Source: Erwinia sp. ErVv1
GTDB taxonomy: Bacteria > Pseudomonadota > Gammaproteobacteria > Enterobacterales > Enterobacteriaceae
Assembly (NCBI RefSeq): GCF_900068895.1
Contig: NZ_CDPK01000001.1
Coordinates: forward strand, 187,976 to 251,975
DNA length: 64,000 bases
Reading direction: 5' to 3'
Position numbers and translations under genes: made by a program. A model generated the notes under the pieces. It was not told the DNA's origin, made no database searches, and saw nothing but the letters and a program-made list of their open reading frames with translations. This document shows, in pieces, positions 24,110 through 37,870 of this stretch (the first letter of the stretch is position 1; the number at the start of each line of letters is the position of its first letter).

Positions 24110-24705
24110 TCCATCACCCTGATTACGTTAAATTTACTAAACAAAAATTCCACGACTGACAGAAGTCGGTAACCACTATTGTACAGGGGTTTTTAATGAG
24201 ATGGTTAAAACTGTCTTATACAAAGGTGCAGTAATTGATGAAGTTAATTGATGCGACGGGGTAAATGTGAAGGGATACCTGCGAATTAAGTGACGGTATC
24301 CGGGGTGTTACGGGGCCTACTGACCGACCAGCCCCTAATGTCTCCGATCGCATCCGTGAGAAAGTCGTCTCAGCGCGGGCGTGAAAATTCGATTTTTTAC
24401 TAACGTAAACCGAGCATAATCAGCCAATAACCTTTTTTCTAAAGGATGCGCCCCGGCAAGGGTTAAAATTCACCCGGCCAAAGTAAAGGTGAGTACCTTC
24501 GCGATTTGCCCACTGCGGCCATGCTGCAACGAGCCACGCAACGGCCCCCTGCCAGAGACGGACATAAGGTAGCCAATCTGAGACCCTGACAGGAAACTTA
24601 ACCCACCCTGAAGCAATAAAACCCACCTTTGATGTCACCTGCCCCTTCGCCGCCGGCTTTGTTATGTGCCGCGGGCCTTCCCGGAGGGCGATCCCGATCG
24701 TGGGG
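24110..24705. other. Intergenic region between esaI and emrY
   Basis: 596 bp. The right part holds the esaI promoter region, including a hairpin-forming CGACTGACAGAAGTCG at about 24154-24169 and TTGTACAGGG near 24179. From 24420 leftward, an open frame with unusual Trp/Arg-rich content (stop at 24420, start inside emrY) shows no family or ribosome site that I recognise. See findings. Confidence 0.4.
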
Positions 24706-26241
24706 TTAATGTCTTTCCCTCTCCAGGGTGGGTTTTGCGAACCACACCAGCAGGGTAAGAAACAAAAATACCGCGGCGGAGAGGGCAAAAATCTCATTGG
24801 CAGAGAGGATAAGCGCCTGCTGGGTGATCTGCTGGTCTACCCAGGCCAGCGTCTGCGCCGGGCTAAGCCCCATACCGTGTAAAACCTGCTCTGTCTGCTG
24901 CCAGGCAGGATTACCCGGCCGGACAAACTCGCTCAGTTCGCTGTGATGCAGCGTTTCACGCCGGCTCCAGAGCGTAATGGTTAATGAGGTGCCGATGGAT
25001 CCGGAGAGCGTACGCAAAAAATTACTCATGCTGGTCGCGCTGGCAAACCTGTCTGACGGGAGTCCGGCAAGCGAAATGGTGGTCAGCGGCAGAAAGAAGC
25101 AGGCGATGGCGAACCCCTGGATAAACTGCGGTAACACAATGGCGGAAAAGGTGATGTCAGGGGAAAAGATGATCGCCCGCCAGTAGTAACATATGCTGTA
25201 GACGATGAAGCTGAAGGTGACCAGCAGGCGCATATCCACCCTGTTACCGTAGCGGCCGATTAGCGGCGCCAGAATCAGCGGGATAAAACCAATTGGCGCA
25301 TAGGCGAGTCCGGCCCATAAGGAGGTGTAACCCATGGCCTCCTGGAGCAGCTGCGGCATAAGAACGATCGCACCGGAGTAAATGAGATAGGCGCAGACGA
25401 TGCAAAGTACGCCAATCGAAAAATTGCGCGACCTGAACAGGGTAAAATCCACTATCGGATTCGCGCTGCGCGTTTCGTGAATAATCAGTGAGGTCAGGGT
25501 AATGACCGAAACGGCAGCCAGAACAACAATCGCCGGTGAGCTAAACCAGTCCAGATCTTTGCCCTTACTGAGCATAATTTGCAGGCTTCCGACCCCCAGC
25601 ACCAGCAGGCTCAACCCGGTAAGATTCAGCTTAACCGGGTGAGTGACCGTCTCGCGTCCCTTAAGCAGAAACACGCTCATTCCCACGACAAGGATACCCA
25701 TCGGTACGTTGATGAAAAAAATCCATCCCCAGTGATAATTCTCACAGATGTAACCGCCAAATATCGGACCTAAGATCGGCGCGATAATCACCGTCATCGA
25801 CCAGGTCGCCAGCGCCAGCGTGCGCTTTTCAGGGGGGTAGTTTCGCAATAGCAGGCTTTGCGAGAGCGGGATTAACGGTCCGGCCACCAGTCCCTGTATC
25901 ACGCGAAAAGCGATCAGCAGATCGAGGCTGTTTGCCAGACCACAGCAGAGTGAAGCGATCGCAAACAGCGCCACCGAAAGTGTAAAAAGCCGGACTTCCC
26001 CGAGCCGCTGCGCCAGCCGCGCGGTTACCGGCAGCGAAATGGCGTTCGCCACGCCAAAGGAGGTGATCACCCAGGTTCCTTCATCCGTTGACGCGCCAAG
26101 GAAGCCGGAAATGGTCGGGATGGCCACGTTGGAGATCGTCGAGTCAAGCATCTGCATAAAGGTTGCCAGCGCTAATCCGACGGTGACCATGATTAGCATT
26201 CCCCCCTTCAGGGGGGCCGGAGCCTCAGCAGCGGCGGCCAT
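24706..26241 (-). CDS. emrY: DHA2-family multidrug efflux transporter, EmrY/EmrB type
   Basis: 511-residue major facilitator protein with 14 predicted transmembrane helices. The family motifs are FMQMLDSTISNVAIPTI in helix 1 and WVITSFGVANAISLPVTARL. It forms a tripartite pump with the adaptor EmrK and an outer-membrane channel (TolC, not in the window). Its ATG overlaps the emrK stop as TAATG. Placement next to evgAS, as in E. coli emrKY-evgAS, favours EmrY over EmrB and suggests EvgA control. Confidence 0.9.
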   Translation of the reverse strand: MAAAAEAPAPLKGGMLIMVTVGLALATFMQMLDSTISNVAIPTISGFLGASTDEGTWVITSFGVANAISLPVTARLAQRLGEVRLFTLSVALFAIASLCCGLANSLDLLIAFRVIQGLVAGPLIPLSQSLLLRNYPPEKRTLALATWSMTVIIAPILGPIFGGYICENYHWGWIFFINVPMGILVVGMSVFLLKGRETVTHPVKLNLTGLSLLVLGVGSLQIMLSKGKDLDWFSSPAIVVLAAVSVITLTSLIIHETRSANPIVDFTLFRSRNFSIGVLCIVCAYLIYSGAIVLMPQLLQEAMGYTSLWAGLAYAPIGFIPLILAPLIGRYGNRVDMRLLVTFSFIVYSICYYWRAIIFSPDITFSAIVLPQFIQGFAIACFFLPLTTISLAGLPSDRFASATSMSNFLRTLSGSIGTSLTITLWSRRETLHHSELSEFVRPGNPAWQQTEQVLHGMGLSPAQTLAWVDQQITQQALILSANEIFALSAAVFLFLTLLVWFAKPTLERERH

Positions 26242-27404
26242 TACAGCCCTCCATTCTGAGCAATGATCTGCTCAATCTGACGGTCGATGTCGGCGGTATC
26301 CAGCACCAGAGCCATACTGCGCCACGCCGGAATCGGCGATACCTTCTGCGCCAGCGCCTGGTCCGCCGTTGAGATACCGCCCGCGGTGAAAATGGTCGCC
26401 GTCGCTGAAAGTCCAATGCGTAACGGGTATTGTTGAATTTGCCGGGGATCGAGCGCCACACGAACCGGCACGCGCTGGATCACTTTGATCCAGTTCCCTG
26501 ACGCATTTTGTGCCGGCAGCAGTGAAAATGCGCTGCCGGTCCCCATGCCGACCCCCTCCACTGCCCCCTCAAATACCAGGCTGCTGCCATAGAGATCAAT
26601 AACCACATTGACCTTCTGACCGATTTTTACCGTATTCAGCTGCGTCTCTTTGAAGTTGGCATTGATCCACATCTGATCCTGCGGAACGACCGAAAGCAGC
26701 GTTTGTCCGGCGGTCACCGTTTGTCCGACCTGTACGCTGCGCCCGGCGATATAACCGGTAACCGGACTACGGATTTTGGTTCGCTGTAGGGCAAGCCAGG
26801 CTTCACGCAGGGTATCCGCCGCCTGGAGAACCTGCGGATTGTGTCGCAGCGTGGTGTTGAGCAGAAGCGCCTTGTTCGCCTGGTAAAGCTGTACCGCTGC
26901 CGCCAGCGACGCTTTATCGCTGGCCACGGCATCGCCTGCATGTTCCAGGGTTTCACGGGCGATCAGGCCTTTCTGGTAGAGCTGCTGCTGGCGTCTGAAA
27001 TCGGTTTGCGTCTGATTCAGCGCGATGGCGGCCCGGTCGGCATCAGCAGAATACTGCCCATCCTGCAGGGCCAGCTGATGAATCTGGCGTACCGTCCAGG
27101 CAAGCGCGCTTTGTGCTTTTCTGAAGGCTATCTTCGCATCCGTGTCATCCAGTACTACCAGCACATCGCCTTTCATCACCCTCTGGGTGTCAGCATAATT
27201 GATGGTCACCACATTGCCCGCCACCTGGGAGGAAACGGGATTAATATTGCCCGCGACATTGGCATCATCGGTACTTTGCCGATCTTTGATGATAAACAGC
27301 CAATAGACCGCGGCGGCAACGCCTAAGAGCAGCACAACGAGCAGCAGGGCAATAACGCCCTTTTTATCCTTCGACAGAACTTTTTCAATGCCAGAATCTT
27401 TCAC
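26241..27404 (-). CDS. emrK: Multidrug efflux membrane-fusion adaptor, EmrK/EmrA type
   Basis: 387-residue HlyD-family protein with one N-terminal transmembrane helix (about 18-38). A biotinyl-lipoyl-like domain is split around a long coiled-coil hairpin (about 85-200), closing at VTGYIAGRSVQVGQTVTAG. It links EmrY to the outer-membrane channel. It is transcribed away from evgA, with 451 bp between the two starts. Confidence 0.9.
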   Translation of the reverse strand: MKDSGIEKVLSKDKKGVIALLLVVLLLGVAAAVYWLFIIKDRQSTDDANVAGNINPVSSQVAGNVVTINYADTQRVMKGDVLVVLDDTDAKIAFRKAQSALAWTVRQIHQLALQDGQYSADADRAAIALNQTQTDFRRQQQLYQKGLIARETLEHAGDAVASDKASLAAAVQLYQANKALLLNTTLRHNPQVLQAADTLREAWLALQRTKIRSPVTGYIAGRSVQVGQTVTAGQTLLSVVPQDQMWINANFKETQLNTVKIGQKVNVVIDLYGSSLVFEGAVEGVGMGTGSAFSLLPAQNASGNWIKVIQRVPVRVALDPRQIQQYPLRIGLSATATIFTAGGISTADQALAQKVSPIPAWRSMALVLDTADIDRQIEQIIAQNGGL

Positions 27405-27855
27405 ACAACGCTCTCTTTCGCCGTAGTAAAGGGCAACGGCGGTAAAATGACAGGATTAGTACGCTTTGAACCGCTGTGTAGACTAAGGGATGCGTTTTTT
27501 TTTGGTAGCAGACAATACTGTATGCGCCGTATTCTTTTTCTTACGTCCCGCGGAAAAATCTGGTTTTTAACAGGTGAATAAAAATATCAATAAATCGTTA
27601 ACGGTTTCTGTTAACGATAAACCCACGCCGGGAAATACGTTAGGTGATACTGATAATCATCCAGGCGAATTGATTTCGCCCCATTTAGTTTTCATTGAGC
27701 CAGCGGATTTACCGTTTGTGATATAGTAACCTTCTGAGTTTGAATGACCGCTTTCATTTAGCATCTCTTCAGCTTTACCTATCACTCTTCTTAATTAAGA
27801 CGGAATATCCCCGTGAGGGTTCTGTCATGCTTATTTTTTAGAAGGAAATTGTGTT
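27405..27855. other. Divergent regulatory region between emrK and evgA
   Basis: 451 bp of AT-rich DNA feeding emrKY leftward and evgAS rightward. I found no full EvgA box. The weakly symmetric CATACAGTATTG (minus strand, near 27,515) is only a partial match. Confidence 0.45.
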
Positions 27856-28470
27856 TTGAAAGCCATCGTTGTTGACGATCATCCTCTTGCCCGGATTGCT
27901 ATTCGCAATCTGCTTGATACCCAGGGTATCAACGTAATTTCTGAACTGGATGATGGTGCGAAGGTCGTGAAGACCGTGGAGATAACCCAGCCCGATTTGG
28001 TTATTATTGATGTGGACTTACCTTCGCTCAGTGGAATAGAAGTGCTTGAGCAGCTGCGGAAAAGGCGCTATGCCGGGGCTATTATCGTTATCTCCGCCAA
28101 GAATGAACTCTTCTACGGCAAGCGCAGCGCGGCACTGGGCGCGAATGGCTTTATCAGCAAAAAAGAGGGGATGAACAGTATCATTGCCGCCGTCGAAGCG
28201 GCCAGTAATGGGTATAGCTACTTCCCCTTTTCTCTCGATCACTTTTCAGGTGAGGCCACGTCAGAGCAGAAAAAACTGGACTCCCTCTCCACTCAGGAAA
28301 TTAATGTACTGCGCTATATTCTGAACGGTACCAGCTACGCCGACATCGCCAGTAAAATGTTTATCAGTAATAAAACCGTCAGCAGCTATAAAATACGATT
28401 AATGGAAAAGCTGGATTGTTCATCTCTGATCGAACTGTATGATTTCGCGCAGCGGAATAAAATTTGGTGA
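27856..28470 (+). CDS. evgA: Response regulator EvgA (NarL/LuxR type)
   Basis: 204 residues. The receiver domain has the acidic pocket DDH (7-9), phospho-acceptor Asp52 (IIDVDLPS) and conserved Lys in ISKKEG. The C-terminal LuxR-type helix-turn-helix (LSTQEINVLRYILNGTSYADIASKMFISNKTVSSYK) spans about 137-195. It is very similar to E. coli EvgA, which drives acid and drug resistance genes. Initiation appears to be at TTG, 8 nt after AAGGA; no ATG suits the frame. evgS follows after 3 nt. Confidence 0.94.
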   Translation: MKAIVVDDHPLARIAIRNLLDTQGINVISELDDGAKVVKTVEITQPDLVIIDVDLPSLSGIEVLEQLRKRRYAGAIIVISAKNELFYGKRSAALGANGFISKKEGMNSIIAAVEAASNGYSYFPFSLDHFSGEATSEQKKLDSLSTQEINVLRYILNGTSYADIASKMFISNKTVSSYKIRLMEKLDCSSLIELYDFAQRNKIW

Positions 28471-28473
28471 ATA

Positions 28474-31400
28474 ATGCAGAAGCTCCATCTTTTCCTGATA
28501 ACATTATTCTTTTTGATGTGTTCGTCGTTTGCGGCAGAATCACCCTATAACGTTGAAATAAAAGGGCACTACATCACCCCGGTGAAAGAAATCCGCTTAA
28601 ACCGGGATCAGGCTCGCTGGCTGGAAAAAAAGGATCGCCTGCTTATTGGCATCGCGATGCCCGATGTCTTGCCGCTTCTCTTTCATTATCCCGACGACGA
28701 TTATCAGGGCGTGCTGGCCGATTATCTGTTTCTGCTGCGCTCCAGCCTGCGCATAAACGTGGTGATTAAAAAATATGGCTCACAGGCGCTGGCCTCCGCT
28801 GCATTGCAGAATAACGAGGTGGATGCGCTGCTTATTCTTCCCGACAGCAACGTTACGCCAGGGAAGCAGTTTCAACGCACCCATGCGCTGATGACTTTTC
28901 ATCCTACGTTAGTCGCCGCGCAAAATCGTGCACTTCCGCTACCGCTTTCGCAGAGCCGGGAGCGGGTCACCGTCGCCGTTCACCGCAGCTATCCCGCCGC
29001 CCGGGCGGTTGCGCAAAACTTTCCAAAGGCCATACTCCGATTTTACGACAATGAACATCAGGCGCTACTCTCCGTCGCTACCGGTGAGAGCGACTATTTT
29101 CTCGGCTATAACGTCACCGCGAGCTATAACATCGAGAAGTATTTCCCGCAGTCCCTGACGATTGTTCGCTATCTTAACAGGCAGCAACGCGGAGTCGTTT
29201 TTCTTACCCGGACTAATCAGCCGCAACTGCACGAGGTACTTAACCGGTTTATTTCCGCTATTTCAAATGAACAGCACGATCAGCTGGCGCAGTACTGGCT
29301 GGAACGGGGCAACCTCTCATTTCTGAATAATCCCTTATCCTTAACGGCGCGGGAAAAGAGCTGGATCAAAGCCCATCCCAGGCTTCGCGTCCTGATTAAC
29401 CGCTATTACCCGCCGCTCTCCATGGTGGATCAAAACAACACGCTGCGTGGGGTAAGTGCCGATTTACTGAATATCATTTCTCTGCAAACAGGCCTGCAAT
29501 TTGAACCCGTCGCCGTCAATTCTAACGAGGAGATGCGGCAAAAAATGCTTAATCATGAAGGGGATTTAATCGCGGCCGCGACCCTGAGTGAGGCGAGACA
29601 GACGCAAATAAACTTTAGCCTCCCCTGGATCCGCCAGCATTATGTGGTCGTCTCCCCGCTCAGTGTCAGCCCGGGGGCCCGGCTGGAACAGCTTGAGCGG
29701 ATTGCGATACCCCTCCACTTCGCCATCAGCGAGCAGCTTAAGGCGCGCTATCCGCACGCAAAATGGATCCTGGCCGATAACTCTTCCATGGCGCTGTCGA
29801 TGGTGGTGGAGGGGAGCGCGGATGCCGCGGTGACCACGGAAATTACCGCTAACTATCTGGTGTCGCGATATTATCCCCAGAACCTGCACTATGCCCCACT
29901 TTCCGATATTCCCTCTGCGCTGGTGGGGATCGCCACCTCCCGCCAGGAGCCGGAACTGCAATCGATCCTTAATAAGGCGCTACAGGTCATCCCCCCGCGT
30001 GAAATACTGCAAATGGTGGGGAAATGGTCAAAGATGCCCAATGTCGAAATTGAGACATGGAATTTATACAGTAAGCCCTTTTATCTGATGCTGACGGTGG
30101 CCGCCTTTATTTTTCTGCTGATTGTGTTTTGGGGCTACTTTCTGCTGCACAAATTTCACAAGCGCGGGCAAAGTGAACGGGAGTTACAGCAGCGGCTGGC
30201 AAACCGGGAAGCCTTTTCGCAGTGTCTGGAAGCCGAGAAAAACAGAGCAATACACGCCACCCAGGCCAAAAGCCAGTTTCTGGCCAGTATGAGCCACGAA
30301 ATACGCACCCCGGTCAGCTCGATTGTCGGCTTTCTGGAGCTGCTTTCCCGACAGCACCTGACGCCGCAGCAGAGTCAGGAGGCTATTGAGCTGGCCACCG
30401 CTACCGCGCAGTCTCTGCTTGGGCTGATTGGCAACATCCTTGACGTTGATAAAATTGAGACCGGAAATTATCAGTGCGAGGCGCAGTGGACGGATGTGGC
30501 GGCGCTGATCGGTGAGATTTGTCGTACGTTTGATATTAAAGCTGCCGACAAAGATATTGCCCTGACGTGCAGCATGCAGCTGCTGCCGGGCATTCAGCTG
30601 CTTCTCGATCCTCATGCTCTGCGGAGAATAGTCACCAATCTGGTGTGCAACGCCCTGAAATTTACCGCTCAGGGCTGCGTAGCGGTGTCGGCAAAACTTA
30701 TTTCGGCTAAGGGGACCTCGGGACGCCTGGCGCTGGTTATCCGTGATACTGGCTGTGGGATCGATGAGGAGGAGCAGAAACGCCTCTTCCACCGCTACGT
30801 TCAGGGTGAAGAGGGACGGCAGCAGATCGGTTCGGGTTTGGGTCTGGTTATTTGTCGGGAATTAGTCAGCCTGATGGCGGGTACGCTGGAGATGGAGAGT
30901 ACGCCCGGTCAGGGAACGACCTTGACGATAATTCTGCCCGTTGAGATCGCCGAGGCGGCGCCCGTGAGTGCCCGCTGTGACCGCCCGATGATGGCGCCGC
31001 TGCCGGCCCTGTCGATTTTGATCGCGGATGATAATCCGGTGAACCGCCTGCTGCTCAAAAGGCAGCTGAACGCGCTCGGCTATGAGGTTGATGAAGCGCG
31101 GGACGGCGAGGAGGCGGAGCAGCTGTGTCTTAAAAAGCGTTATCACCTGCTTATCACCGACCTTAATATGCCGAAGCGAGATGGTCTCATGCTGACCCAG
31201 GCGCTGCGCGGTCAGCAGGCCGATCTGGTCATCTGGGGGTTAACGGCCAGCGCCCTGCCGCAGGTACGGGAAGCCTGTTTACAGAGCGGTATGAATGAAT
31301 GCCTGTTTAAACCGCTCTCACTGGAAAACCTCGCGCAGGCGCTGTGTAAGCTGCCCTCTGAGCAGCCTCTGGTGCCCGACACTCAACATGTAAAGATCTC

Positions 31401-31725
31401 ACTGCTGAATGCGAATACGCAGGGCAACCGCGCCCTGACGGACGAGATCCTGACCACCTTTCGCAGGGAGGCGGCGAAAGACCTGGTGGCGGCAAAACGT
31501 GCGGCTGAGCAGGACGATCGGGCTGGCTTTAAGCGGGCGATTCATCGCCTGCACGGCTCGGCTCAGATCCTGGAAATTGACGCGCTGCAACGCTGCTGTC
31601 GCGATGTGGAGGAGAAATCTCCTTCCCAGCTTACCCGCCCTGTTCGCAACGCGATAATTGCAGAGGTCTCACGTATTGTGCAGGAGCTGGAGGCCGAGCT
31701 GGCGAGGCGATTCAAAATTGCGTAA
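28474..31725 (+). CDS. evgS: Hybrid sensor kinase EvgS, PAS-less form
   Basis: 1083 residues. After a signal peptide come two periplasmic SBP_bac_3-type domains (about 55-275 and 290-520) and a transmembrane helix (about 533-556). The HisKA domain has His608 in MSHEIRTPVSS, followed by the HATPase domain, a receiver with Asp896 (LLITDLNMP), and an HPt domain with His1027 (HRLHGSAQ). The phosphorelay to EvgA is therefore intact. E. coli EvgS (1197 aa) has a cytoplasmic PAS domain between the membrane and HisKA. Here only about 45 residues join them, and the 114-residue shortfall equals that missing domain. Confidence 0.93.
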   Translation: MQKLHLFLITLFFLMCSSFAAESPYNVEIKGHYITPVKEIRLNRDQARWLEKKDRLLIGIAMPDVLPLLFHYPDDDYQGVLADYLFLLRSSLRINVVIKKYGSQALASAALQNNEVDALLILPDSNVTPGKQFQRTHALMTFHPTLVAAQNRALPLPLSQSRERVTVAVHRSYPAARAVAQNFPKAILRFYDNEHQALLSVATGESDYFLGYNVTASYNIEKYFPQSLTIVRYLNRQQRGVVFLTRTNQPQLHEVLNRFISAISNEQHDQLAQYWLERGNLSFLNNPLSLTAREKSWIKAHPRLRVLINRYYPPLSMVDQNNTLRGVSADLLNIISLQTGLQFEPVAVNSNEEMRQKMLNHEGDLIAAATLSEARQTQINFSLPWIRQHYVVVSPLSVSPGARLEQLERIAIPLHFAISEQLKARYPHAKWILADNSSMALSMVVEGSADAAVTTEITANYLVSRYYPQNLHYAPLSDIPSALVGIATSRQEPELQSILNKALQVIPPREILQMVGKWSKMPNVEIETWNLYSKPFYLMLTVAAFIFLLIVFWGYFLLHKFHKRGQSERELQQRLANREAFSQCLEAEKNRAIHATQAKSQFLASMSHEIRTPVSSIVGFLELLSRQHLTPQQSQEAIELATATAQSLLGLIGNILDVDKIETGNYQCEAQWTDVAALIGEICRTFDIKAADKDIALTCSMQLLPGIQLLLDPHALRRIVTNLVCNALKFTAQGCVAVSAKLISAKGTSGRLALVIRDTGCGIDEEEQKRLFHRYVQGEEGRQQIGSGLGLVICRELVSLMAGTLEMESTPGQGTTLTIILPVEIAEAAPVSARCDRPMMAPLPALSILIADDNPVNRLLLKRQLNALGYEVDEARDGEEAEQLCLKKRYHLLITDLNMPKRDGLMLTQALRGQQADLVIWGLTASALPQVREACLQSGMNECLFKPLSLENLAQALCKLPSEQPLVPDTQHVKISLLNANTQGNRALTDEILTTFRREAAKDLVAAKRAAEQDDRAGFKRAIHRLHGSAQILEIDALQRCCRDVEEKSPSQLTRPVRNAIIAEVSRIVQELEAELARRFKIA

Positions 31726-31747
31726 ATGCACGGATACGTCCCGGGCA

Positions 31748-31769
31748 GAAAAAACGTCCCTGTTTTTTC
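31748..31769. terminator. A/T-stem hairpin between evgS and yfdX
   Basis: GAAAAAAC / GTTTTTTC with a 6-nt loop is symmetric, so it can end both converging transcripts. Weak stem, but with T runs on each strand. Confidence 0.5.
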
Positions 31770-31847
31770 ATCAGACACATCGTGTAATAAAACCGGGGGA
31801 TGCAGTAAGACGCGCAGCGAGTTAGCGGTCTTAGTTAGCGATCTTGG

Positions 31848-32477
31848 TTAGCGGTCAACAACCACATCGCTTTCCACCACGATGGCATCTTCCGCGTTTT
31901 TGAGCATCAGATTGGCTTCGTAATATTTACCGTCATTCAGCATGCGCTGGGCCTCAGTCACATCATGACGCGTATGATTCAGCGGCATCAGCTCCTGATT
32001 TTCCATAATACCGATACCGGTCTCACGCAGCGTCTCCACTGCACCTTTCTTGTCACCTTTTGCCAGCTTAGCATTGGCCTTTTTAATGGCTGCTTCTTTC
32101 TCTGGCGTTGCAATATAGTTTTCTGACACGGCGATGGCGGCATTAATGATCACATACTTATCATCGATCATTCTGGCTTTATGGTCGGTCTTCTCAAATC
32201 GGGTCCAGTCGATGCTGTCATCGGCCAGCATTTTTTGCGCGTCAGCGGTCAGCTTTTTGGCCATATCAGGCTGTCCCTGAAAGATAGCGACCCGCGCCAG
32301 GCGGATATCACGCATGGCGATCATACCCTGGGTGGCGATATTCTGTGCATCGGTGACTTCTTTCTGCAGTGACGCTGAAGCGGCGGCGCTGGATGAGGCC
32401 GTTTCGGTGGATGCAGCCCATACCGGAGAGGCGGCCAGCATGGAGGTCAGTACGCCAGCAATAATGATTTTTTTCAT
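31848..32477 (-). CDS. yfdX: YfdX-family periplasmic acid-stress protein
   Basis: 209 residues with a signal peptide (MKKIIIAGVLTSMLAASPVW, cut near WAA), then an all-alpha YfdX domain (TDAQNIATQGMIAMRDIRLAR and LMPLNHTRHDVTEAQRML). In E. coli yfdX is one of the genes most strongly raised by EvgA. Here it lies directly downstream of evgAS in convergent orientation and shares an EvgA-box region with hdeD. Confidence 0.9.
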   Translation of the reverse strand: MKKIIIAGVLTSMLAASPVWAASTETASSSAAASASLQKEVTDAQNIATQGMIAMRDIRLARVAIFQGQPDMAKKLTADAQKMLADDSIDWTRFEKTDHKARMIDDKYVIINAAIAVSENYIATPEKEAAIKKANAKLAKGDKKGAVETLRETGIGIMENQELMPLNHTRHDVTEAQRMLNDGKYYEANLMLKNAEDAIVVESDVVVDR

Positions 32478-32574
32478 TTGTTTATCCTTCTGAATATTTA
32501 AACTGTGGGAGTAAAATACTAATTAATAACCTCGACTGACGTAATCAGAGCCGGACGTAGATAATCAGTGATTA

Positions 32575-32592
32575 CGCCTACAGCTGTAGGAC
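32575..32592. promoter_or_regulatory. EvgA-type operator between yfdX and hdeD
   Basis: CGCCTACAGCTGTAGGAC contains the perfect palindrome CCTACAGCTGTAGG. It matches 15 of 18 positions of the E. coli EvgA box as I recall it (TTCYTACANNTGTARGAA). Lying about 100-130 bp from both starts, it could control both genes. Confidence 0.75.
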
Positions 32593-32716
32593 AGAACTGA
32601 AACCCCCCACCCTTCTCTCTTATTTATCCCTGTTAGCGCGTGCATTACCCTACCAAGGTTCGTCAATACGCCCCCCTGGAACAGGTAGAAAATGATTAAT
32701 AAAAAAAGGAAGGATA

Positions 32717-33289
32717 ATGATAATTATCAGTAATGAGAAACTGAATCAGCTAAGCACTAAAGCATTCGAGCACTATCGACGTTCAGCAACCGTCATGGCT
32801 GTTCTGCTGCTTATTTGTGGCATGTGCTGCCTGGTTTATCCCTTTATTATGGGGGTATATATCAGCTATCTGGTCGGCTTTTTATTCGCCCTGTGCGGCC
32901 TTTATGCCCTGGGAAGCTGCTTTATCTTTCGCCACCGGGGAAAGAAAGCGCTTCTGCTGACGGTTATATTTGGTCTGGTATGGCTGATTATGGGTTATTC
33001 ACTGCTGATCAATCCCGTCTACGGTATGATTTCGCTGACTACCCTAATCTGCTTTCTGTTTATTTTCGGAGGCATTTCGCGTATCGCCGCCGGGATCAGC
33101 ATGCGTAAAAGCAGCGGTGCGGGCTGGCAAATTTTGATTGGTCTTCTGGATCTCATTATCGCCGTCCTCTGGCTTTCCAGCAGTGAAACCCAGACCTTCA
33201 TTATCACCACCCTCTTTATTGGTCTTGAGATGCTCTTTACCGCCTGGGGCATTCTGATGATGCGTCAGGCGCTGCCTGCAAGAATTTAA
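32717..33289 (+). CDS. hdeD: Acid-resistance membrane protein HdeD
   Basis: 190 residues with six transmembrane helices arranged as three hairpins, typical of the HdeD/DUF308 family (GFLFALCGLYALGSCF, LIMGYSLLINPVYGM). It belongs to the acid fitness gene set with the periplasmic chaperone encoded 27 nt downstream. The ATG follows AAGGAAGG. Confidence 0.9.
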   Translation: MIIISNEKLNQLSTKAFEHYRRSATVMAVLLLICGMCCLVYPFIMGVYISYLVGFLFALCGLYALGSCFIFRHRGKKALLLTVIFGLVWLIMGYSLLINPVYGMISLTTLICFLFIFGGISRIAAGISMRKSSGAGWQILIGLLDLIIAVLWLSSSETQTFIITTLFIGLEMLFTAWGILMMRQALPARI

Positions 33290-33316
33290 CCCTGAGTAAT
33301 TAATCCGGAGATCGTT

Positions 33317-33616
33317 ATGAACGTAAAAACCACCCTTTCTGCTTTCATCCTCTGCGCAGCAATTTCAGCCCCATTTTGCAGCGCCTGGGCTGAGTCATCT
33401 GCGCCGACGGAGATGAGCTGTAAAGAATTTATTAACCTCAACCCGAAAGCGATGTCGCCCGTCGCCTTCTGGGCGCTGAATAAGGATATTGATTTCAAGG
33501 GCGGAGATTTTGTGGATATGAATCAGGTCAACACCCTTTATATTCCTAAATTAACCCGGCAGTGTAAAACGAATCCGAATATGAAAGTCGTCGATGCGGT
33601 GAAAAACGCCGATTAG
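33317..33616 (+). CDS. hdeB: Periplasmic acid-stress chaperone HdeB/HdeA
   Basis: 99 residues. A signal peptide ends near SAWA. The mature part has MSCKEFINLNPKAMSPVAFWAL, matching the HdeB signature, and two cysteines (Cys35 and Cys83) that form the family disulfide. It prevents periplasmic protein aggregation at low pH. Co-transcribed with hdeD; Shine-Dalgarno GGAG. I favour HdeB over HdeA because of the NLNPKAMSPVA motif. Confidence 0.88.
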   Translation: MNVKTTLSAFILCAAISAPFCSAWAESSAPTEMSCKEFINLNPKAMSPVAFWALNKDIDFKGGDFVDMNQVNTLYIPKLTRQCKTNPNMKVVDAVKNAD

Positions 33617-33701
33617 CCTGCACAGGCTGGTTGTGGCTGGATTTTATTTCGGATCGCTCAGCGTAATAAATCCTCCTGCTGAGTATTTCGCACCTTCTCA
33701 G

Positions 33702-33728
33702 GCCAGTCTTTAAGACTGGCATTTTTTA
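33702..33728 (+). terminator. Intrinsic terminator of hdeD-hdeB
   Basis: The perfect palindrome GCCAGTCTTTAAGACTGGC is followed by ATTTTTT, about 85 nt after the hdeB stop. Confidence 0.9.
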
Positions 33729-33746
33729 TTAATGGACATAGTTAAC

Positions 33747-33989
33747 ATGAAAAAACGCAGTGTCGCCGTCGCTCTGTTATTTATCTTTCTCTTCTATACC
33801 TGGTTCTCTACCGACCCGGAGGAACTTCCTCTTACCCCGGTAAAACCGGAAATCAATATGATTAACGAGCCGGAATCCGCAGAGGAAAGCCCGTCAGACC
33901 ATGTCGTACATATCGTGAGAGACGCAGCGGAAAAGGGCCTGCGCGTGATTAATTTTTCCTGGTCGGACCTGAGGGAACAGGCATGGTAA
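33747..33989 (+). CDS. Small membrane-anchored protein of unknown function
   Basis: The reading frame MKKRSVAVALLFIFLFYTW... encodes 80 residues with one N-terminal hydrophobic helix and an acidic Pro/Glu-rich exported part. An in-frame ATG 15 nt upstream is possible. No family is recognised and no strong ribosome site is seen. It begins right after the hdeB terminator, so it would need read-through or its own promoter. The stop codon lies inside the first unit of a 22-bp tandem repeat. The membrane signature makes it plausible but unproven. Confidence 0.45.
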   Translation: MKKRSVAVALLFIFLFYTWFSTDPEELPLTPVKPEINMINEPESAEESPSDHVVHIVRDAAEKGLRVINFSWSDLREQAW

Positions 33990-34107
33990 GTAGAGGTTGA
34001 AGACGACGAGAGAAAACATTGAAGGCATCGTAAGTAAACGTTGAAGGCGTCGTGAATTAATATTGAAGGGATCGTAAGTAAACGTTGAAGGGGTTGGGAG
34101 TAAAAAT
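33986..34107. repeat. 22-bp tandem repeat array, five and a half copies
   Basis: Units start at 33986, 34008, 34030, 34052, 34074 and (partial) 34096. The consensus begins GTAAGTAAACGTTGAAGG and ends with CATC-like bases. Copies 3 and 5 are nearly identical; the others have 4-8 changes. There are no spacers and the length is not a multiple of three, so it is neither CRISPR nor coding. Confidence 0.9.
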
Positions 34108-34142
34108 CCGCCACGGTTTCCCGTCGCGGATTGGTTTTTTTC
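34105..34142 (+). terminator. Terminator after the 22-bp repeat array
   Basis: The stem AATCCGC / GCGGATT with a 14-nt interior is followed by GGTTTTTTT on the plus strand. It precedes the convergent slp stop by a few bases. Confidence 0.7.
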
Positions 34143-34143
34143 G

Positions 34144-34731
34144 TTACCTGACCAGATACGACCCATCGGCAACCGGATAGACGCCGTTAAGGCCGTCGCC
34201 CGGCAGTGGATAGCCCCACTCGGGCGACCAGGCATAGCTCATACCGTCAAAGGGGATAAAGTTCTCCTCCTGCTGCCATACCTGATAACCGGCGACATTT
34301 AGCCTGAGGAATCGGTAAGGTGTCTGCCCGATTTTTAGCGGCTCCGTACCCTCAATCTGACCGAGGACCGTAATATAACGATGGAGCACATTCACCGGAT
34401 CGATAAAGTTTTTACTGTACGCCAGAATACGCCCCTGATAGCTATCTCCCAGGACAGGTTTCGCCGAACGATTGAGCGGCAGGATGGCAATTTCCATAAT
34501 GGTCTTTTCAGGCAGATTAATGACGTTTATTACCTTACCGCCCAGCCGCACCTCACGGCCCTGATATAACGAAGGCGCCTGCGAAATTTTCTCGAATGAT
34601 GCCGGACTGATCGCCCCCGGCTCGCCGCGTATGCTCTGCGGCACGGAGGCACAGCCGCTCAGAAAAAGAATAACGGACGACAGCACAACGCCCTTGAAGG
34701 TATGCCTGGCAGCGAAATGAGATTTTTTCAT
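34144..34731 (-). CDS. slp: Slp-family outer-membrane lipoprotein
   Basis: 195 residues with a lipoprotein signal peptide and lipobox LSGC (Cys27). The Slp domain follows (FEKISQAPSLYQGREVRLGGKVI, GRILAYSKNFIDP). Slp is starvation- and acid-inducible and in E. coli sits in the acid fitness island beside hdeBAD. Here it converges on the hdeDB side, keeping that association. Confidence 0.9.
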   Translation of the reverse strand: MKKSHFAARHTFKGVVLSSVILFLSGCASVPQSIRGEPGAISPASFEKISQAPSLYQGREVRLGGKVINVINLPEKTIMEIAILPLNRSAKPVLGDSYQGRILAYSKNFIDPVNVLHRYITVLGQIEGTEPLKIGQTPYRFLRLNVAGYQVWQQEENFIPFDGMSYAWSPEWGYPLPGDGLNGVYPVADGSYLVR

Positions 34732-34790
34732 AAAGAACTCGTATGCATTGGGAAGAAAATGCCGGAGAGGATGCTCCCCGGCCGTTGAAA

Positions 34791-36062
34791 TTAGCGGCTG
34801 ATAATGCGAGCCAGAGCGCTGTTGACGGGGATATTGCTGCTATCCAGGCCCGGGGTCTGCCCCCTGAGGTCAAACTCAATGTTCACCTTAGGTCCGAAAA
34901 ACAGGCAGTGCGTGGAGCCGCCAAAGTGAAACATGCCGAGCTGATCGCCCTTACGGACGGTCTGGCCTTCATAGACGGTCACTTCACAGGTCGACACTTC
35001 GGCCATGCCCACCGCCATAAAGCACATCAGCCCGATGTCAGGATGATCCGCTTCGATGAAGATCAGCGCCCGACTCGCCAGTTCGGTGATGTAGCCCTGG
35101 GAAGCATTCGGCCCGGCCGTATCTTCCCCTTCGCTCAGCGTTTCGGAGTAGTAAGTGCCGTCGATGATGCGGGTTTTAACGACGCGGCCCGAGACGGGCG
35201 CATGCCAGCGGTGATAGCTCAGGGCGCTTAAAAACGCCTGATAAATTGTCCCACCCACAAAATGTGATGCCAGCGGATCGTTGTTCATCATAAATTGCAG
35301 CGCGTAAGGCTGTGATTTAATCCAGAATTTATCCTTCAGCTGAACCTCCTTCGCCAGCCGATAGGGGGCAGATTCACAGGCGTTAACCACCACATCATCA
35401 TTTTCCGGCGCGGCTATCGGCCTGACCCCCTCACGAAAACGGCGGGTAAAGAAGTCGTCCCAGGAGGTAAAACCGTGATGGGGAAGCGAAGGATCGCAGA
35501 TAAAGTCATCCACAAACGTCGGCATCGCCCGGCGCGCATCTTCGCCAAACCAGCCCGAGCGCGGGTCTTCACTGAGTACGGCGGCGCTCTCTTTCGAGCG
35601 CAGAAAGACCGCCCACTCATTGAGTATCGCTTTGATATGCTGATTAATGCGCTCGTCGAGGAAGCCACTCCAGCCGCCCTGCGTCGCCATTGACCAGTTG
35701 AGGATGGCATTGAAAGGGAAACCGACCAGGCCCGTTTCATCGAACTCCGGGGCATGCGTCATGATGACGTTAATCAGTGCGAGCATATGCTGATAATCGC
35801 GCACCTGCGGCAGCCCGGCTGGCGAAAGCCGGTGGGCTTCATCCTCGCTCACTTCATCAAACATTTGCGTAAACAGCATCCAGGCCCTGGGATCGGTCTC
35901 GATAAAGGTTTTGAACGCATCGACCACCGGCAGCAGCGGCTCGCTGCTTTCATCCGCTTTACGCATGATTTTCAGCATCCAGTCATGCAGGGTCTGCCGA
36001 TCCGCGGGCATCCATTTCCCCACGGTATAGGTTTTATTACAGGGCTTTATGTCAGTTTTCAT
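34791..36062 (-). CDS. Pyruvoyl-dependent decarboxylase of the phosphatidylserine decarboxylase family (PsiD/PSD-like)
   Basis: 423 residues with an extra N-terminal helical domain (about 1-160), then the catalytic PSD domain. Visible features are SWDDFFTRRFREGVRPI, YHRWHAPVSGRVV and the self-cleavage motif GGST at 381-384. Cleavage before Ser383 would give a 382-residue beta chain and a 41-residue pyruvoyl-bearing alpha chain. No membrane helix is seen. Bacterial membrane PSDs are shorter and use LGST. The N-terminal extension plus GGST resembles the branch that includes fungal tryptophan decarboxylase. An amino-acid transporter lies 40 nt upstream, so I infer an amino-acid rather than a phospholipid substrate. 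Confidence 0.8.
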   Translation of the reverse strand: MKTDIKPCNKTYTVGKWMPADRQTLHDWMLKIMRKADESSEPLLPVVDAFKTFIETDPRAWMLFTQMFDEVSEDEAHRLSPAGLPQVRDYQHMLALINVIMTHAPEFDETGLVGFPFNAILNWSMATQGGWSGFLDERINQHIKAILNEWAVFLRSKESAAVLSEDPRSGWFGEDARRAMPTFVDDFICDPSLPHHGFTSWDDFFTRRFREGVRPIAAPENDDVVVNACESAPYRLAKEVQLKDKFWIKSQPYALQFMMNNDPLASHFVGGTIYQAFLSALSYHRWHAPVSGRVVKTRIIDGTYYSETLSEGEDTAGPNASQGYITELASRALIFIEADHPDIGLMCFMAVGMAEVSTCEVTVYEGQTVRKGDQLGMFHFGGSTHCLFFGPKVNIEFDLRGQTPGLDSSNIPVNSALARIISR

Positions 36063-36102
36063 TGGAACTCCACTTATAAACGAGCGATGAAATTAAGGTT
36101 GA

Positions 36103-37602
36103 TTACGATGGCTGGTAGACCTGGGGCAGATGGCCGGTAAAGAGCATCCACAAACCGACCAGCGCGGCGATGACGATAAGCAGTGCCAGCAGGCCTTCGT
36201 TGCGGGTAAACACCGGCTGGTCGGGCGACTGCTCTTTACGGGCGCGGATGAAGACCAGCAGTCCGATGGCGTAAATGGCACATCCCACCAGAATGAAAGA
36301 GAGCCCGGCGGCATAGACCAGCCAGATGCCGTAAAGCGTGGCCAGAACGCTGGTGACAAGCGCGCCGATGCGGCTGAACCGGGCCTTTTGCGGGTAACCC
36401 CCCGTTGCCAGCACCTTCCATAAGAAGGCCGCGGAGCCGATATAGGCAGGCAGGATCACCACGCCGGTGATCGACAGCATGACGTTCCAGGCATTGTGGG
36501 AGAAAAAGACCAGCAGCATCGCCGCCTGCATCACCAGGGTGGACACCCACAGCGAGTGCGAGGCGACGCCGTTAGCATTGGTTTTGGCGAAAAATTTTGG
36601 AAAGGTGCCGTCTTTGGCGCAGGCCCACGGCAGTTCGGCCACCAGCAGCGTCCATACCAGCCAGGAGGAGAGCAGCGCGATAATCACGCCAACATTGATA
36701 AAAATACCGCCCCAGGGTCCGACCAGCGCTTTAAGGATCGAGGCCGTGGAGGGCGCCGCCATGGCAGCCAGCTCACCCTGCGAGAAGACGCCAAACGGAA
36801 TAATACTGACCAGCACAAACAGGACGGTGGCAATGATAAAGCCGAGAAAGGTGGCGCGACCGACGGTACGTCCATCGGCCTTATCGGACATCACGACCGC
36901 CCCTTCAATGCCGATATACATCCACAGCGTTACCAGCATGGTGCTTTTGACCTGATCAAAAATATCGCCCAGCGGTTTGTCCTGTAGCGCATTATCGCGA
37001 AGGTGGCCCCAGAAATCCGATCCCATCAGGTGGTGGTTGAAAGCGAAGAACGCCAGCACGACGATAAACACCACAACGGGAATAAACTTCGCGACGGTGC
37101 CGATGCTATTGAGCACCGAAGTGCCTTTCACGCCGCGCATCACAAAAATACTCAGCGCCCAGATAATGACCGACGCCACGGTGATGGCCTGCCAGCTGTT
37201 ACCGCCTTTGAAGTAGGGTGGGAAAAAGAAGTTCAGCGCATCCATCAACAGAACGGCGTAGCCGACGTTGCCAAAGGCCGCTGACATCCAGTATCCCCAC
37301 GCAATCAGGAAGCCGGTCAGCTTGCCGAAGCCCGTGCGGGAGTACATATAGATCCCGGAGGTCATTTCGGGATGCACATCGGCAAGGATCTGAAAGGTTC
37401 TCGCCAGGAAGAAGATCCCCAGCCCGGTAATCACCCATGCGATAAGAATGGCGCCCAACGCCGCCGACTGCGCCATGTTTTGCGGGATATTAAAGACCCC
37501 GCCGCCAAACATGGCGCTGATGACAAGTAACGTCATGGCAAGAACGCCAAACTGCTTTGTGGCCTGAGCTTTTGTCGCTTTGGCCTGCTTTTTTACCGCC
37601 AT
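36103..37602 (-). CDS. APC-superfamily amino-acid/polyamine antiporter
   Basis: 499 residues with about 12-13 transmembrane helices. The N-terminal SAMFGGGVFNIPQNMA motif fits the basic amino acid/polyamine antiporter (APA) group, which includes arginine/agmatine, lysine/cadaverine and ornithine exchangers. It leads a two-gene leftward unit with the pyruvoyl decarboxylase. This suggests exchange of an external amino acid for its decarboxylated amine, a proton-consuming cycle. The substrate cannot be fixed from sequence. Confidence 0.85.
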   Translation of the reverse strand: MAVKKQAKATKAQATKQFGVLAMTLLVISAMFGGGVFNIPQNMAQSAALGAILIAWVITGLGIFFLARTFQILADVHPEMTSGIYMYSRTGFGKLTGFLIAWGYWMSAAFGNVGYAVLLMDALNFFFPPYFKGGNSWQAITVASVIIWALSIFVMRGVKGTSVLNSIGTVAKFIPVVVFIVVLAFFAFNHHLMGSDFWGHLRDNALQDKPLGDIFDQVKSTMLVTLWMYIGIEGAVVMSDKADGRTVGRATFLGFIIATVLFVLVSIIPFGVFSQGELAAMAAPSTASILKALVGPWGGIFINVGVIIALLSSWLVWTLLVAELPWACAKDGTFPKFFAKTNANGVASHSLWVSTLVMQAAMLLVFFSHNAWNVMLSITGVVILPAYIGSAAFLWKVLATGGYPQKARFSRIGALVTSVLATLYGIWLVYAAGLSFILVGCAIYAIGLLVFIRARKEQSPDQPVFTRNEGLLALLIVIAALVGLWMLFTGHLPQVYQPS

Positions 37603-37870
37603 TAACTGCTCCTGATAGGGACGAAAATCGTTGTCGGCTATCTTGAGCGCAAGCGCGGAAAGTAAATATCAGAGCGCAGTTAGGGGTCTGTCGAATTTGT
37701 CCGTGGCCTGTAGGACTGGGCTGATATCAGCGCGGCGGTGAGGGTGATTCACCTGTCGATTTTCCTCTCTTGCAGGCAATTGTGTTCAGGCTATTTTTTA
37801 TCCAGTGCTCATTTTGTGCTATTGTTACTGGTAACATTGGCACAATCCGCAAGGGGTTTAAGGAGAAAGT
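37603..37870. promoter_or_regulatory. Divergent promoter region, possible EvgA half-site
   Basis: On the minus strand TCCTACAGG at about 37707-37715 matches one arm of the EvgA box before the antiporter gene; the other arm is degenerate. The polyol dehydrogenase gene is transcribed the other way. Confidence 0.4.

Follow-up and report, generated by a model that had tools for sequence, protein, structure and literature searches.

What is the function of a gene resembling phosphatidylserine decarboxylase (PSD) when it lies beside an antiporter gene within a set of acid-resistance genes? The question is raised by a 64,000-nucleotide stretch of Erwinia sp. ErVv1 (contig NZ_CDPK01000001.1, positions 187,976 to 251,975; hereafter the window), in which a PSD-superfamily decarboxylase gene (here DEC) and an amino acid antiporter gene (ANT) form a unit close to homologs of EvgA, EvgS and Slp. 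We consider it probable, from sequence comparison and gene context, that ANT and DEC constitute an EvgA-controlled arginine/agmatine acid-resistance module resembling AdiA/AdiC, with a pyruvoyl-type enzyme of the PSD superfamily as the decarboxylase. At low pH, EvgS and EvgA would turn on the ANT-DEC unit. The motif at the GGS site of DEC and the split chains of PDB entry 9jer suggest that DEC would cut itself at this site, forming a pyruvoyl cofactor from S383 instead of using pyridoxal phosphate (PLP). DEC would then convert L-arginine to agmatine, consuming one cytoplasmic proton per turn, and ANT would move agmatine out and arginine in. Pyruvoyl formation, the arginine substrate, agmatine export and acid survival are all predictions of this model.

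The DEC and ANT proteins

The start of DEC lies 40 bp from the stop of ANT on a common strand. The structure of both genes and the families of their products are established, and the main features are as follows.

34791-36062, minus strand: DEC, intact PSD-superfamily (PSDC and PS_Dcarbxylase) pyruvoyl-type decarboxylase, 423 aa; proposed L-arginine decarboxylase (Pfam, PDB sequence match, neighbours of relatives)
36103-37602, minus strand: ANT, APC-family basic amino acid/polyamine antiporter, 499 aa (TIGR00905); proposed arginine/agmatine exchanger
34911-34922, minus strand: G381-G382-S383-T384, predicted self-cleavage site near the C-terminus, with S383 the predicted pyruvoyl residue (sequence)
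35211-35213, minus strand: H284, invariant histidine in the YHRWH motif of DEC (alignment)
35373-35375, minus strand: E230, in the NACES motif of DEC, at the position of the acidic residue of the PSD family (alignment)

DEC consists of a PSDC domain (PF12588, residues 45-180, 5.3e-45) followed by a PS_Dcarbxylase domain (PF02666, residues 202-399, 6e-37), which are its only Pfam matches at E 0.001. G381, G382 and S383 (codon 34914-34916) are invariant among 42 aligned sequences including that of the window, and T384 (codon 34911-34913) is conserved in at least 90% of them. E230 presumably plays the part of the acidic residue of PSD, by analogy. The order of the two domains, the GGS site with the invariant histidine, and the fold all place DEC in the PSDC two-domain group. 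No match to PF02329 (the HdcA family) or to PLP-enzyme families was found in the Pfam and NCBIfam scan. DEC is likewise outside the PvlArgDC/AaxB family, which we take to have a Pfam domain of its own, since only PF12588 and PF02666 match. The first-pass annotation had described a PSD-family decarboxylase with a GGST motif next to an APA-type antiporter, and this description holds.

The PF02666 match, together with the annotation name in public plasmid records, would make DEC a second phosphatidylserine decarboxylase serving membrane lipid synthesis. We regard this as scarcely credible. The PSD equivalog models that match DEC all score below their cut-offs (best 102.4 bits against 371), and the same genome encodes an ordinary Psd elsewhere (C4:214865-215530). 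When a profile of 39 DEC relatives was compared with the PDB, E. coli Psd scored 65.8 bits, compared with 380.8 for 9jer and 346.1 for PsiD, the tryptophan decarboxylase of psilocybin mushrooms. The single-sequence search with DEC gave 29.7, 257.7 and 238.9 bits, respectively. A lipid-enzyme identity was rejected on the basis of the model scores and the separate Psd. The first-pass annotation had proposed comparing DEC with PSD and PsiD; the distance to Psd is large, while both PsiD and 9jer are near.

The PDB titles identify 9jer and 9jf5 as an Aspergillus oryzae arginine decarboxylase, the former without ligand and the latter with arginine. DEC is approximately 40-42% identical to this protein. 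The AlphaFold model of DEC (mean pLDDT 82.5) matches PsiD 8zia with Z 31.4 over 321 residues, 9jf5 with Z 29.2 over 329 residues, and Psd with Z 16.1; EIIA-Glc and M23 peptidases appear among the VIA-align rows at Z of 11 or below. Both PsiD and 9jf5 therefore stand far above Psd, and the fold alone does not decide between tryptophan and arginine. The alignment has 185 sites that separate 9jer from PsiD; DEC agrees with 9jer at 61 of them and with PsiD at 40, a comparison that lends mild support to 9jer over PsiD.

PsiD is by a small margin the closest fold, and DEC could accordingly be an aromatic, tryptophan-type decarboxylase whose amine leaves through an aromatic amine exporter. However, 9jer ranks above PsiD by sequence, ANT belongs to a basic amino acid family, and the enzymes encoded beside DEC in some relatives, AguA and AguB, have agmatine and its product as substrates, so that an aromatic substrate appears very improbable. 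The first-pass annotation had left aromatic and basic substrates side by side. The basic alternative, specifically arginine, is favored by the match to 9jer and 9jf5 and by the AguA/AguB/PAD context described below; the aromatic one is the weaker.

ANT scores 503.9 bits against TIGR00905 (basic amino acid/polyamine antiporter; cut-off 409.05). Its best PDB match is AdiC, and its score against the AdiC equivalog NF007929 is 140.1 bits, under the cut-off of 574. The AdiC residues Y93, N101, W202, E208, S289, W293 and Y365 are all kept in ANT. They were considered as a marker for arginine and found to be a weak one: all seven are also present in CadB and thus do not discriminate between arginine and lysine.

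Gene neighbourhoods of DEC relatives

DEC relatives were collected from a genome collection (the best 80 of 93 were kept), from a 392-genome sample of the family, in which the PSDC domain occurs in 16 genomes, and from a plasmid collection in which 36 records match DEC, 21 of them over most of the query; five plasmid records were examined. In wider samples DEC-type genes were found in one of 369 genomes of the class, that of the window itself, and in four of 398 of the phylum. Below, loci carry L numbers and genomes G numbers.

The pairing is recurrent: at ten places, the window included, DEC adjoins an antiporter 68-84% identical to ANT. The other nine are as follows.

L003: Edwardsiella piscicida
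L004: Pantoea ananatis plasmid
L005: Ignatzschineria
L007 and L008: Hyphomicrobiales metagenome-assembled genomes (MAGs), with the two genes convergent
L100: Enterobacter cancerogenus plasmid
L102: Photobacterium damselae plasmid
L105 and L108: enterobacteria

In the Photobacterium plasmid the antiporter is 72% identical to ANT, whereas DEC is only 47% identical and belongs to another branch of the tree.

In some relatives the neighbours of DEC point to its substrate. An operon of AguB, AguA, a PotE-type antiporter and DEC is found in Klebsiella sp. BIGb0407 (L006/L106) and also in L108, from a species of the window's own genus. Pseudomonas psychrophila (L009) has AguB-antiporter-DEC, and a Veillonellaceae MAG (L057) has antiporter-AguA-AguB-DEC. 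A further locus, L078, carries a DEC fragment, AguB, AguA, a second distant DEC and ANT. Equivalog cut-offs are exceeded by both AguA and AguB in L006, L057 and L078, and by AguB in L009. AguA, agmatine deiminase, acts on agmatine, and AguB, N-carbamoylputrescine amidase, acts on the product of AguA. The simplest reading of these operons is therefore that DEC makes agmatine from arginine.

A second, different PAD_porph-family gene comes directly after DEC in L043 and L056 (Pfam), and relatives of this gene follow DEC in L080 and L051.

L043:2525-3928, L056:9300-10745, L080:7441-8826, L051:8399-10606 (open reading frame (ORF) start uncertain in L051): DEC-adjacent genes of the PAD_porph-type subfamily

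These proteins come from four distant lineages, are 461-481 aa long in L043, L056 and L080, and score 23-28 bits against the AguA equivalog. Because L080 was a seed of the PAD profile, its match to that profile is built in; taken by itself, it scores 31.2 bits to agmatine deiminase. The subfamily is probably a deiminase partner acting on a guanidino group. Of 92 loci, 8 have an AguA or PAD gene no more than 3.5 kb from DEC, and none has one beyond that distance, with 0.57 and 0.60 Mb of DNA surveyed, respectively. This count leaves aside the window, L001 (which has no DEC) and 23 loci that are same-genome copies or have short flanks. Eight of these 23 are the short-flank loci L091-L098 of a remote group at 30-34% identity, four of whose genomes are retained as L112-L115.

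A tree of 99 rows was built by a quick maximum-likelihood search; we made no use of its placement of PsiD, 9jer and the remote rows, which are on long branches. The window belongs to a 19-row clade (SH-aLRT 100); nine of its rows are ANT pairs, three are AguB/PotE-type operons and seven have neither, and the AguB/PotE group is sister to the subgroup of the window (SH-aLRT 87). As the distances within the clade are short, a single substrate is likely to be common to all of it.

Several loci show further arrangements. At L108:4481-12394 the AguB-AguA-antiporter-DEC operon and a DEC-ANT pair are both present, adjacent and convergent. Beside the antiporter-AguA-AguB-DEC genes of L057, an AdiA-type PLP decarboxylase (L057:3581-4384) is reduced to its C-terminal third, as if replaced by DEC; an assembly fault is the alternative. 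The Lactobacillus loci L058, L059 and L061 are arranged DEC-antiporter-DEC, with a third DEC in L061, as though a single antiporter served two or more DEC paralogues; L061 also has a POT-family peptide transporter gene near its DEC genes, and a similar ORF is found in L058. In L113-L115 a DEC relative of 30-33% identity has no antiporter; that of L113 is located beside a C69-family peptidase gene (Pfam), and L114 and L115 have a similar-looking neighbour.

EvgA-type sites and the acid island

We take the EvgA binding consensus to be TTCYTACANNTGTARGAA. In E. coli K-12 it matches the regions upstream of ydeP, safA, emrK, yfdX and frc at 14-16 of 16 positions (0/1000 shuffles); patterns of this kind had been inspected before the sites were formally scored. 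Two published studies (PMC8174306, PMC3720670) state that EvgA controls emrKY and ydeP and that it binds inverted repeats in the case of yfdX and yfdWUVE. The first-pass annotation had reported an EvgA half-site upstream of the unit, and it is indeed present:

37707-37715, minus strand: EvgA-type half-site TCCTACAGG, at -113 from the ANT start codon (motif scan)
32575-32592, minus strand: EvgA-like palindrome GTCCTACAGCTGTAGGCG in the yfdX/hdeD interval (13/16, shuffle p = 0.003)
37665-37694, minus strand: sigma-70-like promoter TCGACA-18-GATATT just downstream of the half-site (consensus scan 9/12; weak, with 5 in the stretch against 3.3 expected)

Two copies of the sequence TCCTACA are present in the 64 kb (37709 and 32585), each of them upstream of island genes.

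The half-site recurs with EvgA. It is found at -107 to -139 upstream of ANT in the loci of five species (the window, L105, L100, L109 and L108), and L111, from the same species as one of these, has a T variant in this position. The sites of L105 and L109 match the consensus at 14 and 15 of 16 positions (0/1000 shuffles); the other three match at 10-12 of 16, with p no better than 0.08. The product of the five half-site chance values is 9e-7. All five genomes encode an EvgA 55-100% identical to that of the window, which in L100 (56%) is on the same plasmid. In the Edwardsiella, Ignatzschineria and two Hyphomicrobiales genomes, by contrast, neither an EvgA at 1e-40 nor a half-site was found, so that the site precedes ANT in 5/5 species' loci with EvgA and 0/4 without it (Fisher p 0.008). 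It is also absent upstream in L102 and in three AguB operons. Two genomes, G348 and G1156, have more distant EvgA-like matches (48-52% and 37%), and their AguB operons lack the half-site. In the genome of L108, EvgAS is located with EmrKY and Slp 2.3 Mb from DEC-ANT, and the site would therefore act in trans.

These sites bear on whether the pair serves acid resistance at all. DEC could be an arginine decarboxylase with another role, making agmatine or putrescine that is exported for polyamine, signalling or nitrogen metabolism. The AguA/AguB operons would yield putrescine, and the EvgA half-site is found in 0/3 of them. On the other hand, pairs of the ANT type are located in EvgAS/Slp islands, or have EvgA half-sites where EvgA exists. 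We judge a non-acid role of the pair to be unlikely, and favor the EvgA-controlled acid-resistance module.

An acid-island setting had been claimed from the sequence, and the surrounding genes bear it out:

34144-34731, minus strand: Slp outer-membrane lipoprotein, 59 bp after DEC on the same strand (TIGR00752, 163.9 bits; cut-off 88.45)
34761-34782, minus strand: terminator-like hairpin in the DEC/Slp gap, 9-pair stem and T-rich tail (weak, with 8 in the stretch against 5.3 expected)
33317-33616, plus strand: HdeB-like periplasmic acid chaperone (PF06411; NF008599, 105.6 bits, below the cut-off of 124)
32717-33289, plus strand: HdeD-like acid-resistance membrane protein (NF007577, 168.3 bits, below the cut-off of 189)
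31848-32477, minus strand: YfdX (NF007645, 286 bits; cut-off 256)
28474-31725, plus strand: EvgS-like sensor kinase, 1083 aa (NF007420, 906.4 bits, below the cut-off of 1995)
27856-28470, plus strand: EvgA response regulator (NF007419, 348.6 bits; cut-off 251; 66% identical to K-12 EvgA)
24706-27404, minus strand: EmrY and EmrK efflux pump genes (68% and 55% identical to K-12 EmrY and EmrK)

Slp is a possible read-through partner of ANT-DEC. HdeD, HdeB and EvgS score below their cut-offs but are clear relatives. Identities to E. coli K-12 are 66% for EvgA, 68% for EmrY, 55% for EmrK, 50% for YfdX, 43% for HdeB, 39% for Slp, 36-50% for EvgS and 26% for HdeD. The order emrY-emrK-evgA-evgS is the same in the window and in K-12, where yfdX likewise lies further along. 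The EvgS-like kinase is shorter than that of K-12 (1197 aa) and matches it in two blocks, at 36% and 50% identity. An 85-aa ORF in the HdeB/Slp interval (33732-33989) has no NCBIfam match.

The island recurs with the pair in L105, as EvgS-EvgA-EmrK-EmrY-Slp-SDR-ANT-DEC, and on plasmid pUPC1 (L100, NZ_LR881937.1), which encodes EvgA, an HdeD-like protein, YfdX, EmrK, EmrY, the antiporter and DEC. This plasmid, from Enterobacter cancerogenus of activated sludge, is typed as conjugative (IncFIB and IncFII) and has a cadB-annotated gene approximately 9 kb further on. Judged by its gene content, pUPC1 carries a mobile acid-resistance island, and the island overall appears to be scattered and mobile. 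A distant-mode search of the E. coli collection with 34144-37700 gave no match, nor did a near-mode search of the plasmid collection with 24700-37700. Among 37 genomes of the window's genus, EvgA occurs in four and DEC in three, two of the same species; all three DEC genomes have EvgA.

GadA/B was not found in the window genome, nor was AdiA or AdiC above cut-off; the two AdiA matches score 539 and 415 bits against 1167. A Pantoea genome with the pair (G146) also lacks GAD, which is present in the pair-bearing genomes G119, G056 and G360. The pair thus occurs both with and without GAD.

Several of our observations weigh against an arginine-dependent acid-resistance module. On the protein side, ANT misses the specific models (arginine-ornithine 483/591 bits, histidine-histamine 450.9/725), and the fold of DEC matches PsiD (Z 31.4; Foldseek 3e-31) slightly better than 9jf5/9jer (29.2; 5.7e-27). 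The lean toward 9jer is unspecific, being seen in all 91 core rows (in the weakest by one site) and in six remote rows, and 14 conserved positions are common to PsiD only, compared with 21 to 9jer only. The window genome has no AguA, so that arginine is argued from relatives, and in 74 of 92 loci (the window included, many with short flanks) and 7 of the 19 rows of the window clade no antiporter, AguA or AguB gene is adjacent. The site upstream of the window ANT is a half-site with no full palindrome overlapping it and by itself has a chance p of 0.048 in a 270-bp region; no EvgA site was found upstream of emrK, slp or hdeB in the window. G119 and G056 have EvgA, the pair and GAD, and the pair is therefore not simply a GAD substitute. 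Finally, L016 has a PLP AdiA-like gene (706/1167 bits) between the antiporter and DEC, and the Lactobacillus loci have two or three DEC genes for each antiporter.

These last two observations also suit a module that works in the same way on a different basic amino acid, with DEC acting on lysine, ornithine or histidine and ANT exchanging it for the amine. The AdiA-like enzyme and DEC of L016 could differ in substrate, and the several DEC genes per antiporter look as if theirs did. ANT, moreover, is identified only generically as a basic amino acid/polyamine antiporter, and three-component histidine/arginine systems are described in passages of PMC8465708. However, AguA and AguB, whose substrates are agmatine and its product, would be out of place in one operon with an enzyme of that kind, and among solved structures the one nearest in sequence is that of an arginine decarboxylase. 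A substrate other than arginine is thus unlikely, although less so than a non-acid role, and arginine remains our preferred assignment.

Wider distribution and known systems

Among 87 loci with DEC, a simple hydrophobicity criterion, applied to start codons chosen mechanically, assigns a Sec- or Tat-like signal peptide to the DEC of 22. These loci include L020, L022, L024, L025, L027, L028, L030, L032, L033, L038, L041, L046, L054, L060 and L064. No antiporter, AguA or AguB gene adjoins DEC in any of the 22, whereas one does in 18 of the 65 others (Fisher p 0.005, a guide only as the rows are related). An exported PLP-free amino acid decarboxylase would be unusual.

Taken together, these data allow a broader but tentative proposal, to which we give somewhat less than even weight. 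Bacterial PSDC proteins, annotated as 'phosphatidylserine decarboxylase family protein', may be widespread pyruvoyl-type arginine decarboxylases. One branch would provide PLP-free, EvgA-wired acid resistance, serving where GAD and AdiA are missing and travelling on the conjugative pUPC1. Another, with Sec/Tat signal peptides and without antiporters, would decarboxylate outside the cytoplasm, which to our knowledge is not easy for a PLP enzyme. Apart from this proposal, a gene labelled as lipid metabolism in public records is probably an arginine-dependent acid-survival system of enterobacteria, and one island copy is on a conjugative plasmid. Such a system would add a new, PLP-free fold to the few amino acid decarboxylases of acid resistance and supply a substrate for a family of bacterial PSD-like proteins. 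A decarboxylase would also become a direct target of EvgS/EvgA, in this case in a genome that lacks GAD.

A limited search of the open-licence literature, not aimed at the paper on 9jer, found no description of a bacterial PSD-superfamily arginine decarboxylase or of such an acid pair. Within that search, bacterial PSDC-family members as arginine decarboxylases, paired with antiporters and under EvgA, are apparently new. The first-pass annotation had gone further, holding that, as far as it knew, a PLP-independent decarboxylase/antiporter system would be new; this was too broad, because pyruvoyl decarboxylase/antiporter pairs of other enzyme families (AaxB/AaxC, HdcA with its antiporter) are known. 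The fungal PSD-superfamily arginine decarboxylase of the PDB titles and AdiA/AdiC were also known before.

The closest of the known proteins is the A. oryzae arginine decarboxylase (9jer, 9jf5), which shares with DEC the PSD/PsiD-type fold and the GGS site, where the 9jer chain is split, and is its best sequence match; it presumably catalyzes the same reaction. It differs in being fungal, and we know of no antiporter or acid island associated with it. PsiD (8x4q, 8zia) has the same fold and domain order and, in passages of PMC12603985, is described as a PLP-independent self-cleaving enzyme of the PSD family. However, its substrate is tryptophan, and its motif is given as GGSS in PMC6121855, compared with GGST in DEC. 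The E. coli AdiA/AdiC system has the chemistry and exchange proposed here, and ANT is a distant relative of AdiC (26-29% identity). In contrast, AdiA is a PLP enzyme with another fold.

Among pyruvoyl enzymes, Chlamydia AaxB/AaxC is described as a pyruvoyl-dependent arginine decarboxylase with an arginine:agmatine antiporter (passages of PMC2720952), but AaxB has 195 residues and belongs to a different family. HdcA/HdcP, a pyruvoyl histidine decarboxylase with an antiporter, is discussed in connection with acid resistance in passages of PMC8465708; unlike DEC, HdcA acts on histidine and belongs to PF02329, which DEC does not match. The SpeD-derived arginine/ornithine decarboxylases resemble DEC in being pyruvoyl enzymes with an AguA/AguB context (PMC10407285), and differ from it in their origin from S-adenosylmethionine (AdoMet) decarboxylase and in being biosynthetic. 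For SpeD homologues, passages of the same source report that arginine decarboxylase activity was predicted from the AguA/AguB context and then tested on purified proteins.

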